Positions 4,779 through 6,997 of a stretch of DNA of 24,812 nt are shown here, in pieces. Under the pieces are notes generated by a model that worked only from the letters and a program-made list of their open reading frames with translations, did not search any database and was not told where the DNA came from. Every line of letters starts with the position of its first letter. Position 1 is the stretch's first letter. The DNA is from a virus: positions 1 through 24,812 of IMG/VR virus record IMGVR_UViG_3300011436_000005; one strand, given 5' to 3'. The translations under genes were made by a program, and so were the position numbers.

Positions 4779-5152
4779 ATATTGATGAGGCTAAGAAATT
4801 TCTCAAACTCGCTGGTGTTTGCTACCCGCCTGACGACGAGACTCCGGGGCTTGTTCTAAACATGAATGACGTATGGGGATGGGCGACAGCGTGGGGCGAG
4901 GATGTTCCAGACGATCAGATAATGGAGGTTATCGTATTGCTGTGCAGATACGGGGATGCTGGCCTTCTATATTGGGTCAGTGAACGGAACGAATGTATGC
5001 GCTCAGAGTTCGAGGACATAAATCGATTCGTTGATTTTGTCCGAAACGAGGAGCGAATCAAGAAAGAGACGCCAGAATCCAATAAGCGCGCCTACAGGAA
5101 GGTAACGTACACGCTCGGCGCACCGATAGACAGCCGGAGCGCCAAGGGATGA
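4775..5152 (+). CDS. Hypothetical protein, relatively AT-rich
   Basis: This 125-aa soluble protein has an acidic, tryptophan-containing N-terminal half (NMNDVWGWATAWGEDVPDDQ) and a basic C-terminus. No family was recognised. Its codons use clearly more A/T at third positions than the recombination genes before it (for example ATT, GAT, AAA, TTT runs), which suggests separate acquisition. It starts in an ATGA overlap with the preceding gene and ends in one with the DUF4224 gene, so it is expressed as part of the same operon. Confidence 0.7.
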   Translation: MNIDEAKKFLKLAGVCYPPDDETPGLVLNMNDVWGWATAWGEDVPDDQIMEVIVLLCRYGDAGLLYWVSERNECMRSEFEDINRFVDFVRNEERIKKETPESNKRAYRKVTYTLGAPIDSRSAKG

Positions 5153-5349
5153 GCCTCTGCTTCACCCGCGAGGAATTGCAGGAAATGGCCGGCCGGACCC
5201 GCCGCTCGGCGGTCGTCCGGTGGCTCGATGCCCGGCAGATTCCCTACGTGCTGGACGCCGACGGCTGGCCGAAGGTGCTCCGGACCGCCGTCCTTGACCA
5301 GTCGCACGCGACCCCGCATCCTGCCGAACCCCAGCTCCGCTTTCAATGA
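5149..5349 (+). CDS. DUF4224 protein (integrase-adjacent small protein)
   Basis: The 66 residues match DUF4224: FTREELQEMAGRTRRSAVVRWL, IPYVLDADGWPKVLR. These small proteins are normally encoded directly upstream of phage tyrosine integrases, often overlapping them by ATGA, and have been proposed to act like excisionases. Here the stop lies in CAATGA, where an ATG in another frame overlaps the TGA exactly as an integrase start would. Instead of an integrase, a radical SAM cassette begins two bases after the stop. The same CAATGAAT is repeated beyond the cassette, followed by an integrase-like start. The C-terminal tail (ATPHPAEPQLRFQ) appears intact. Confidence 0.85.
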   Translation: MSLCFTREELQEMAGRTRRSAVVRWLDARQIPYVLDADGWPKVLRTAVLDQSHATPHPAEPQLRFQ

Positions 5350-5351
5350 AT
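5344..5351 (+). repeat. Left 8-bp flanking direct repeat (putative target duplication)
   Basis: CAATGAAT here is identical to 6460-6467. It contains the DUF4224 stop codon and abuts the left inverted repeat with no gap. Confidence 0.7.
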
Positions 5352-5392
5352 GGGAATTATATACTTGACTCCACCAAGCGAATCAGCGGGTT
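5352..5392 (+). repeat. Left inverted repeat of radical SAM cassette
   Basis: This 41-bp sequence matches the reverse complement of 6395-6435 at 34 positions without gaps. Its outer 13 bases also match the reverse complement of 6447-6459 perfectly. It ends one base before the radical SAM start codon at 5393. On the minus strand it contains a TATAAT hexamer. Confidence 0.75.
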
Positions 5393-6379
5393 ATGAACGT
5401 TAGATTGACTCAAATTGACGGCGCGTTACCGAATCTGGCGCTGATGAAACTCGCGCACTGGCATAAAGCGCAGGGCGACACCGTGACCGTGACGCGCCAC
5501 ATCGAGCCGCAGCTTGACGATCCGACCTATGACAAGGTGTACGGCTCCGCTATCTTCAAATTCTCGCAAGACCGCCTGATGAGATTCCAGCGGCAATGGC
5601 CGACCGCCATCGTGGGCGGGACTGGCACGCCATACGTTCACACCGTCGAGGACGTGATCGGCAAGCCTGAGCATGAGTTCTACGATTACAGCGGCTACCC
5701 AGACTTCAAAGACTCGCTAGGCTTCACGCAGCGCGGGTGCCGCCTCAAGTGCAAGTTCTGCGTGGTGCCGACGAAAGAGGGCAAGAATCGCGGACTTAAT
5801 CCCGTATCGGCAATCTGGCGCGGCGATCCCTACCCGCGCAACCTGAACATTCTTGATAACGACTTTTTCGGTCAACCGGACTGGCGACTGCGGATAGCCG
5901 AGATCATTGAAGGCAAGTTCCGAATCTGCCTTCAGCAAGGGATCAACGTCAGGCTCATTGACGAGGCCGCTGCCGCCGCGCTGGCGACCGTCCAGTACCG
6001 AGACACCAAGTTCAAGGAACGACGCCTATACACGGCCTGGGACAACCTGAAAGACGAAGGCGTGTTCTTCAAGGGCGTGGACATTCTGGAACGTGCTGGC
6101 ATCCCGCCGAAGCAACTGCGGGCATACATGCTGATCGGCTTCGACAAAAACGAAACTTGGGAGCGCCTATGGCACCGCTTCAACCGGATGGTCGAGCGCG
6201 GCATTGAGCCTTACCCGATGGTGTTCGACCGCAGCCGAAAGGATTTGACCAAGTTCCAGAGGTGGGTAATCACCGGCCTCTATCGGGCTGTCCCGTTCAG
6301 CGAGTACGACGCCAACATGAAAGGCTCTGCTGCCGAGAACGCTGAAAACGCGCAGAAACAAGCCCGGATGTTCGCGTGA
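5393..6379 (+). CDS. Phage-type radical SAM protein
   Basis: The 328-aa protein has Cys116-x3-Cys120-x2-Cys123 (RGCRLKCKFC), the 4Fe-4S/S-adenosylmethionine motif of radical SAM enzymes. The first 110 residues (MNVRLTQIDGALPNLALMKL..., YDKVYGSAIFKFS) resemble the B12-binding-like alpha/beta domain seen before some radical SAM cores, but there is no DxHxxG cobalamin motif. Later core pieces include NILDNDFFGQ, LQQGINVRLI, and YMLIGFDKNETWE. Proteins of this shape occur in phages; the substrate is unknown. It is the only gene of the inverted-repeat-bounded cassette and is not coupled to its neighbours. The site upstream (GCGGG) is a weak ribosome site. Confidence 0.85.
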   Translation: MNVRLTQIDGALPNLALMKLAHWHKAQGDTVTVTRHIEPQLDDPTYDKVYGSAIFKFSQDRLMRFQRQWPTAIVGGTGTPYVHTVEDVIGKPEHEFYDYSGYPDFKDSLGFTQRGCRLKCKFCVVPTKEGKNRGLNPVSAIWRGDPYPRNLNILDNDFFGQPDWRLRIAEIIEGKFRICLQQGINVRLIDEAAAAALATVQYRDTKFKERRLYTAWDNLKDEGVFFKGVDILERAGIPPKQLRAYMLIGFDKNETWERLWHRFNRMVERGIEPYPMVFDRSRKDLTKFQRWVITGLYRAVPFSEYDANMKGSAAENAENAQKQARMFA

Positions 6380-6385
6380 TGAAGC

Positions 6386-6416
6386 CCACTAGCCAAGCCG
6401 TTGAATCGGTTAGTGG
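6386..6416 (+). other. Hairpin after radical SAM gene
   Basis: CCACTAGCC (6386-6394) pairs with GGTTAGTGG (6408-6416) through nine pairs, one of them G-U, around a 13-base loop. No U-tract follows, so a classical intrinsic terminator is doubtful. It overlaps the inner part of the right inverted repeat. Confidence 0.5.
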
Positions 6417-6435
6417 AGTTAAGTATATAAGTCCC
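6395..6435 (-). repeat. Right inner inverted repeat of radical SAM cassette
   Basis: The reverse complement aligns without gaps to 5352-5392 (34/41). Differences are evenly spread single substitutions, suggesting an old duplication rather than a recent one. Confidence 0.75.
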
Positions 6436-6468
6436 AATGGAATCATGTATATAATTCCCCAATGAATC
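6423..6468 (+). repeat. Tandem duplication of the cassette right end
   Basis: GTATATAAGTCCCAATGGAA at 6423 is followed 24 bases later by GTATATAATTCCCCAATGAA at 6447. Both copies pair the terminal-repeat tip with an AATG(G)AATC flank, as if the end plus its target had been duplicated or two insertions had occurred side by side. Confidence 0.6.
6460..6467 (+). repeat. Right 8-bp flanking direct repeat (putative target duplication)
   Basis: This CAATGAAT is identical to 5344-5351. Its ATG (6462) is the start of the integrase-like remnant. Confidence 0.7.
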
Positions 6469-6503
6469 GCCCACGCAAGCGCGACCGGCACCTGCCGAAG
6501 CGT
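6462..6503 (+). pseudogene. Vestigial integrase N-terminus
   Basis: The frame beginning at 6462 encodes MNRPRKRDRHLPKR, a pattern typical of the first residues of phage tyrosine integrases that follow DUF4224 genes (basic, RPRK..., RHLP). After about 14 codons the similarity stops; the open frame continues to 6689 but only as the antisense of the endolysin. No integrase catalytic region (R..H.xxR..Y) follows. The likely cause is a deletion that fused the integrase start to the end of the lysis cassette. The identification rests on a very short stretch plus position. Confidence 0.5.
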
Positions 6504-6520
6504 GGTCGGAAATTCGACCT

Positions 6521-6997
6521 TCACGGGTTGGCCTCGACCATCTGCCAGGCGGCTTTGAAGAAACCGTCCCAGGTCTGCCGCCAAGGCTTGCCCGGGCGCC
6601 AGGCGTCGATGTACTGCGCCCACCCGGTGGCAGCGTCACCACGGGCAGGAAGTGCCGGCGACAGCGTCCACAAAAGACAGCGGGCGTAAGCGAAGGCCAG
6701 CACGTCGTTGTGCTCGATGGCCGTATAGCTGACGAACGGGTCGTTGTTGTAGTCGAGCCGCGCGAGCACCGCCTCGATGATCGGCCGGCTGGCGTGGTGA
6801 ATGAGCACGCCCTTGATGCCCCCAAGCTCGAACTGCCAGAAGCCGCGCGCTGGCCCCCGGATCTGTCGGCGTTCGTCCCAACGCGACTCCTGCATCGCGA
6901 TCGCCATCAGCATCGCCTTCGCCGCCGGAACGTCCATGTTGGCGGGAAGTAGCGCGGCGGCGGCCTTGTAGATCGGGCCGAAGGCGGTGAAACTCAC
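6521..6997 (-). CDS. Endolysin, transglycosylase/lysozyme-like
   Basis: The 158-aa product is read from a GTG at 6997 that overlaps the holin stop (GTGA); longer open frames only read through the holin gene. Residues 27-57 read AKAMLMAIAMQESRW...GPARGFWQFE, the lysozyme/lytic transglycosylase pattern with Glu37 as the likely catalytic acid. A long helical region with HNDVLAFAYARCLLW follows. There is no signal peptide, so export should depend on a holin. It is the last gene of the leftward block and its stop lies at the boundary with the integrase remnant. Confidence 0.85.
   Translation of the reverse strand: MSFTAFGPIYKAAAALLPANMDVPAAKAMLMAIAMQESRWDERRQIRGPARGFWQFELGGIKGVLIHHASRPIIEAVLARLDYNNDPFVSYTAIEHNDVLAFAYARCLLWTLSPALPARGDAATGWAQYIDAWRPGKPWRQTWDGFFKAAWQMVEANP

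Follow-up and report, generated by a model that had tools for sequence, protein, structure and literature searches.

A 1,108-bp phage-borne element that carries a single radical SAM gene and no transposase is, as a whole, very probably best explained as a nonautonomous cassette of the IS1595 insertion sequence family, with a gene body that was exchanged between constant ends and a cargo that may well modify DNA. The element occupies positions 5352 to 6459 of the window, i.e., the whole stretch of 24,812 nucleotides (nt) of IMG/VR record IMGVR_UViG_3300011436_000005 that was analyzed, and it has exact 13-bp inverted ends with an exact 8-bp duplication, CAATGAAT, abutting them. Together with similar elements in other viral contigs, it suggests that genes for DNA modification pass between phages in mobile cassettes of a plug-in type.

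The element and its insertion site

The features of the element and its flanks, with window coordinates and strand where one applies, are as follows:
5149 to 5349 (+), DUF4224/excisionase-like gene, upstream of the insertion
5344 to 5351, left 8-bp target duplication CAATGAAT, which keeps the DUF4224 stop codon
5352 to 5392 (+), left terminal inverted repeat; the outer 22 bp are an IS1595-type end, and the repeat of the cassette subfamily is 41 bp
5393 to 6379 (+), cargo gene for a 328-aa radical SAM protein (phrog_9298) with C116-x3-C120-x2-C123
6359 to 6435 (+), 77-nt 3' module, identical to that of the N6/N4 methyltransferase cassettes L122 and L178
6383 to 6420 (+), hairpin (−15 kcal/mol) that follows the stop codon and resembles a terminator but lacks a T run
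6395 to 6435 (−), inner right terminal repeat of the GGGACTTATATACTTAACTCC type, the same as the right ends of L122 and L178
6438 to 6459 (−), outer right terminal repeat GGGAATTATATACATGATTCCA, the end on which the most recent transposition acted
6460 to 6467, right 8-bp target duplication CAATGAAT, which supplies the integrase ATG
6462 to 6500 (+), integrase N terminus MNRPRKRDRHLP, truncated in the window; the full reading frame is present in the relative L282

The first-pass annotation had described perfect 13-bp inverted repeats with an octamer touching both ends without a gap. Both observations were confirmed: GGGAATTATATAC matches exactly at 5352 to 5364 (+) and 6447 to 6459 (−), and the window contains just two copies of CAATGAAT, 5344 to 5351 and 6460 to 6467, each abutting one end of the element. 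A third copy of GGGAATTATATAC, with one mismatch, lies just inward of the right end (6423 to 6435, −). The inverted repeat is longer than 13 bp, with arms of approximately 41 bp pairing 5352 to 5392 with the inner right end (6395 to 6435) at 83% identity. The right end is doubled into 24-bp units at 6414 to 6437 (inner) and 6438 to 6461 (outer). Cassettes L122 and L178 have right ends identical to the inner unit, whereas the outer unit is the same as one end of the transposase-carrying elements L161 and L177. Because the exact duplication abuts the outer unit, it was this unit that served in the most recent transposition. A complex history of the window copy is evident from its doubled right end.

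The octamer was correctly recognized at the outset as the junction between the DUF4224 stop codon and the integrase start codon. In relative L282, whose DUF4224 protein is 63% identical, DUF4224 runs straight into a full integrase gene and the insert is absent, representing an empty junction, albeit in a different phage whose octamer has only the ATGAA core in common with that of the window. The accompanying claim that the codons of both neighboring genes were kept is true of the junction, but the integrase itself is truncated. From 6462 to 6523, the window contains approximately 13 integrase codons (MNRPRKRDRHLP) followed by an antisense transglycosylase-like gene; therefore, either the integrase has been lost from this phage or there is a join in the contig at this point. 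An insertion preference for gene borders gave no signal, with open reading frames (≥100 aa) spanning 38 of 52 joined flanks against 35 to 42 expected, in a test dominated by spurious reading frames, and we therefore do not claim the tidy ATGA junction of the window as a rule.

Matching ends and the IS1595 transposase

The exact 18-mer end GGGAATTATATACTTGAC was found in at least 119 stretches of IMG/VR viral contigs, in many cases as inverted pairs, spaced 39 bp to 3.5 kb apart among the matches listed. Of the 512 candidate end pairs in the loci retrieved, 94 were abutted by an exact 8-bp duplication; shifting the right flank as a control gave 0.25 on average, with a maximum of 5. Chance is excluded by 94 exact duplications versus 0.25 expected, which upholds the earlier judgment that such a coincidence of repeats and octamers was unlikely. 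The octamers are AT-rich, with A most common in the first positions and T in the last. The same duplications rule out an explanation without any insertion, in which the repeats would be phage operators or promoters that flank the gene by coincidence: the end contains TTGACT and, when reversed, a TATAAT-like sequence, as that explanation would have it, but the empty site in L282 and a transposase encoded inside the same ends also speak against it, leaving it with a negligible probability.

Closely similar elements were found at unrelated sites without any flank similarity, namely, L133 and L187 (99.7% identical), L161 and L177 (96%), and L085 and L196 (94%). The same is true of the transposase-less pair L155 and L159, which are 91% identical. 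A scan with AATCAGCGGGTTATGA returned several unrelated loci besides cassettes. Individual loci were arranged in other ways. L100 (270 to 317; 48 bp) and L185 (6144 to 6182; 39 bp) are cargo-free, consisting of little beyond the two ends, and both elements have an exact 8-bp duplication. In L093 (7107 to 8583), a 476-bp cassette lies within the end of a 1,477-bp DHH phosphoesterase cassette. One gammaproteobacterial metagenome genome (contigs CATOTD01...; L211 to L275) contains over 20 matching stretches, most of which are a 1,457-bp insertion sequence of the same family.

Among the proteins encoded between these ends, the largest cluster (~305 aa) matched DDE_Tnp_IS1595 (8e-47), the IS1595 zinc ribbon, and the NCBIfam IS1595 transposase (6.5e-61), with conservation of the zinc-ribbon cysteines and of D141, D210, and E246. 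The terminal inverted repeats of the window element and its relatives start with GG, as is typical of the IS1595 family. Among the matches listed, the transposase was present in 29 of 52 distinct viral elements and lacking in 23, and all 31 elements from bacterial and archaeal species genomes encoded it. When only matched 21-mer ends were counted, excluding one IS-rich genome, the numbers with and without transposase were 21 and 11 for viral elements versus 15 and 0 for bacterial elements (Fisher P = 0.009); thus, transposase-less copies are mainly viral in the sampled set. Three further elements (L286, 3433 to 4595; L291, 3342 to 4534; and L295) carry a TnpB/OrfB_IS605 gene in IS1595-type ends with the start codon at nt 31, and no clean 8-bp duplication was seen in these three.

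The window element does lack a transposase, as first noted, and no IS1595 transposase is encoded anywhere in its 24.8-kb record. Most cassette-bearing records, many of which are fragments, likewise lack one. Phage record G013 carries a cassette and an IS1595 element together, with somewhat different ends, and records from the phage collection yielded no close transposase (best identity, 35 to 37%) and thus offered no ready-made laboratory phage. One could regard the window element as a fossil, i.e., an IS1595 copy whose transposase was deleted, leaving one immobile gene that is maintained as a phage moron; the record without an IS1595 transposase and the doubled, mixed right end would agree with such a history. 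However, its 8-bp duplication and outer 13-bp repeats are exact, cassette-only relatives occur at unrelated sites, and many different cassette-only elements have perfect duplications, making a fossil distinctly unlikely.

The first-pass annotation had suggested looking for the same ends elsewhere with other cargo or a transposase, and among the matches listed they occur with both. Its suggestion of a new class of mobile cassette went too far, because these ends bound IS1595-family insertion sequences with 8-bp duplications and about half of the viral elements with such ends encode the IS1595 transposase. With IS-type ends, a target duplication, an unrelated reading frame, and no transposase, the window element fits a mobile insertion cassette (MIC) or a transporter insertion sequence derivative of IS1595. 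At 1,108 bp with a gene for 328 aa, it is not the short, noncoding element that a MITE is. It is an unusual variant in that it is phage-borne and combines constant coding ends with DNA-modification cargo and exchanged gene bodies; a search of the open-license literature yielded no account of IS1595 cassettes borne by phages.

Constant ends, exchanged bodies, and the radical SAM cargo

In approximately 14 phage cassettes, that of the window among them, the position of the start codon within the element is exactly nt 42. Cargo of this subfamily comprises N6/N4 methyltransferases (L122, L178, L206, L290, and G027, with G026 and G028 partly seen), D12 methyltransferases (L155, L159, and L209), a C5 methyltransferase (L167), Mom (the second cassette of L122), a 73-aa protein (L294), and the radical SAM protein of the window. 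Of the two cassettes on the L122 contig (1658 to 2462 and 11961 to 12588), one encodes an N6/N4 methyltransferase and the other encodes a DNA modifier of the Mom type.

The window element and cassettes L122, L155, L159, L167, and L178 have 46 to 51 nt of their 5' ends in common at 89 to 94% identity. Against L178, the window element is 96.8% identical over the 3' 94 nt and 89% identical over the 5' 46 nt, with no similarity between these regions within the cassette; against L122, the 3' side is 96.6% identical over 88 nt. The 77 identical nucleotides at 6359 to 6435 encode QARMFA, the stop codon, the hairpin, and the inner right repeat, giving the radical SAM protein and the methyltransferases of L122 and L178 a common QARMFA C terminus. 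N6/N4 (L206) and D12 (L155, L159, and L209) enzymes are likewise linked by a second 3' module, QERLFA followed by GCGCCGTGGGAGT, and neither of the two modules was found outside such cassettes in IMG/VR. Identical nucleotides argue against convergence of the peptides and point to replacement of the body via recombination. Because unrelated enzymes have the ends and some last codons in common, bodies have been swapped between constant ends. An apparent body swap was also observed between L098 (108 to 2383) and L188 (1673 to 4441), which have both end regions in common and different methyltransferases (C5 versus N6/N4).

On contig G017 (60.9 kb; loci L178 and L002), the closest radical SAM relative (70%) lies 11 kb from the 3' module that is most similar to that of the window, making a contig of this kind a plausible donor type for body exchange. 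This proximity, and the near identity of the 5' and 3' modules that flank unrelated genes, could also mean that the ends serve mainly as homologous-recombination anchors for body exchange and that transposition is minor today. Yet every cassette has its own distinct 8-bp duplication and unrelated flanks, so that transposition of the assembled cassette is needed, and we consider a mainly recombinational role unlikely.

The radical SAM assignment was made through PHROG (1.5e-48), the Pfam match being below its cutoff, and the CX3CX2C cysteines (C116, C120, and C123) are invariant in 43 aligned sequences. For the predicted structure (pLDDT, 89), the nearest viral fold was a methylthiotransferase (E value of 7e-6; TM score of 0.58 by query length), a likeness at the fold level only, which would relate the protein in fold to a nucleic acid-modifying class of radical SAM enzymes. 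A fold search of PDB returned nothing below an E value of 1e-3. Nothing credible emerged from a sequence search of solved structures, where pentatricopeptide matches were probable artifacts of designed-protein repeats, with no single stretch passing. Among the matches listed, radical SAM cargo occurs in one cassette only, and approximately 80 related genes lie outside such ends. Within the family (L002 to L081), the C-terminal motif Q-x-x-[LMIV]-[FLM] is present in 20 of 54 distinct tails, compared to approximately 1 in shuffled sequences; we take these tails to resemble sliding-clamp-binding peptides.

Since nearly all identifiable cargo of the nt-42 subfamily modifies DNA, the radical SAM protein may do so as well, and the company of methyltransferase and Mom cassettes, the fold, and the tail motif point in the same direction. 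The radical SAM body would most likely be another phage DNA-modification (antirestriction) enzyme; this is guilt by association and the weakest step of our interpretation, and we rate the chance of a DNA-modification role at about even. A more ambitious reading, in which a dedicated phage cassette system with IS1595 ends, a constant start region and tail (Q-x-R-[ML]-F-A), and a swappable body spreads antirestriction DNA-modification enzymes, with radical SAM as a new DNA-modifying type, is tentative and somewhat doubtful. Its tail, too, presumably resembles a sliding-clamp-binding peptide.

Proposed mechanism and comparison with known systems

We propose that a related full-length element in the same cell, whether in a phage, a prophage, or the chromosome, supplies the transposase, which would act in trans. 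The transposase would recognize the 22-bp ends, and the cassette would enter an AT-rich octamer, with duplication of 8 bp. In the window, the landing site was the DUF4224/integrase overlap of a temperate podovirus-like phage, whose junction the duplication preserved. Transposase-carrying elements obtain their −35 sequence (TTGACT) from the repeat, and 36 of 69 autonomous ends, versus 1 of 30 cassette ends, have a −10-like hexamer (TATAAT-like) at a distance of 17 bp from the TTGAC of the repeat; therefore, cassette cargo probably depends on phage transcription. The left repeat of the window (5352 to 5392) contains TTGACT (−35-like), has no −10 at 17 bp, and stops directly at the start codon of the cargo gene, which is codirectional with DUF4224 and integrase. 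Having lost the autonomous-type promoter, the cassette would have its gene read from the phage operon. The constant parts of the subfamily are the outermost 41 bp, which reach up to the start codon, and in many cases also the final codons with the 3' hairpin and the repeat; the gene body between them is exchanged by recombination, as seen from near-identical DNA ends flanking nonhomologous genes.

Small "moron" genes and genes for DNA modification make phages mosaic, and their route of arrival is rarely visible, whereas here the vehicle can be seen. In many phages, interchangeable enzymes, most of which modify DNA, are carried between identical transposon ends that are bordered by fresh 8-bp duplications, and many of these copies are transposase-less. 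The constant ends offer a simple DNA search handle for phage counterrestriction genes, including unknown ones, and the large, uncharacterized phage radical SAM family gains a testable prediction.

Several known systems are comparable. Like MITEs, the window element is transposase-less with terminal repeats and a target duplication, and members of 39 to 48 bp (L185 and L100) are cargo-free; unlike MITEs, it carries a full gene. Like integron gene cassettes, elements of the window type are promoter-poor, single-gene modules passed between genomes, but they have inverted ends, an 8-bp duplication, and a DDE transposase family instead of attC and an integron integrase. Transporter insertion sequences with passenger genes, including members of the IS1595 family, appear as known elements in PMC3129680 (citing Siguier et al. 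2009), which also presents mobile insertion cassettes such as the "modular" MIC231 of Bacillus cereus (citing De Palmenaer et al. 2004). Elements that encode a transposase of the IS1595 family (ISXO2-like) have the same terminal repeats and 8-bp duplication, with passenger genes in autonomous copies, whereas the window element has one passenger gene only and neither a transposase nor a transposase promoter. MIC231 likewise combines insertion sequence ends with unrelated passenger genes, lacks a transposase, and is presumed to be mobilized in trans. It belongs with a different transposase family, that of IS231, a relative of IS4. In contrast to MIC231, the window cassette type is phage-borne, its cargo consists mostly of DNA-modification enzymes, and it has a fixed start-codon distance and a coding tail within its constant end.
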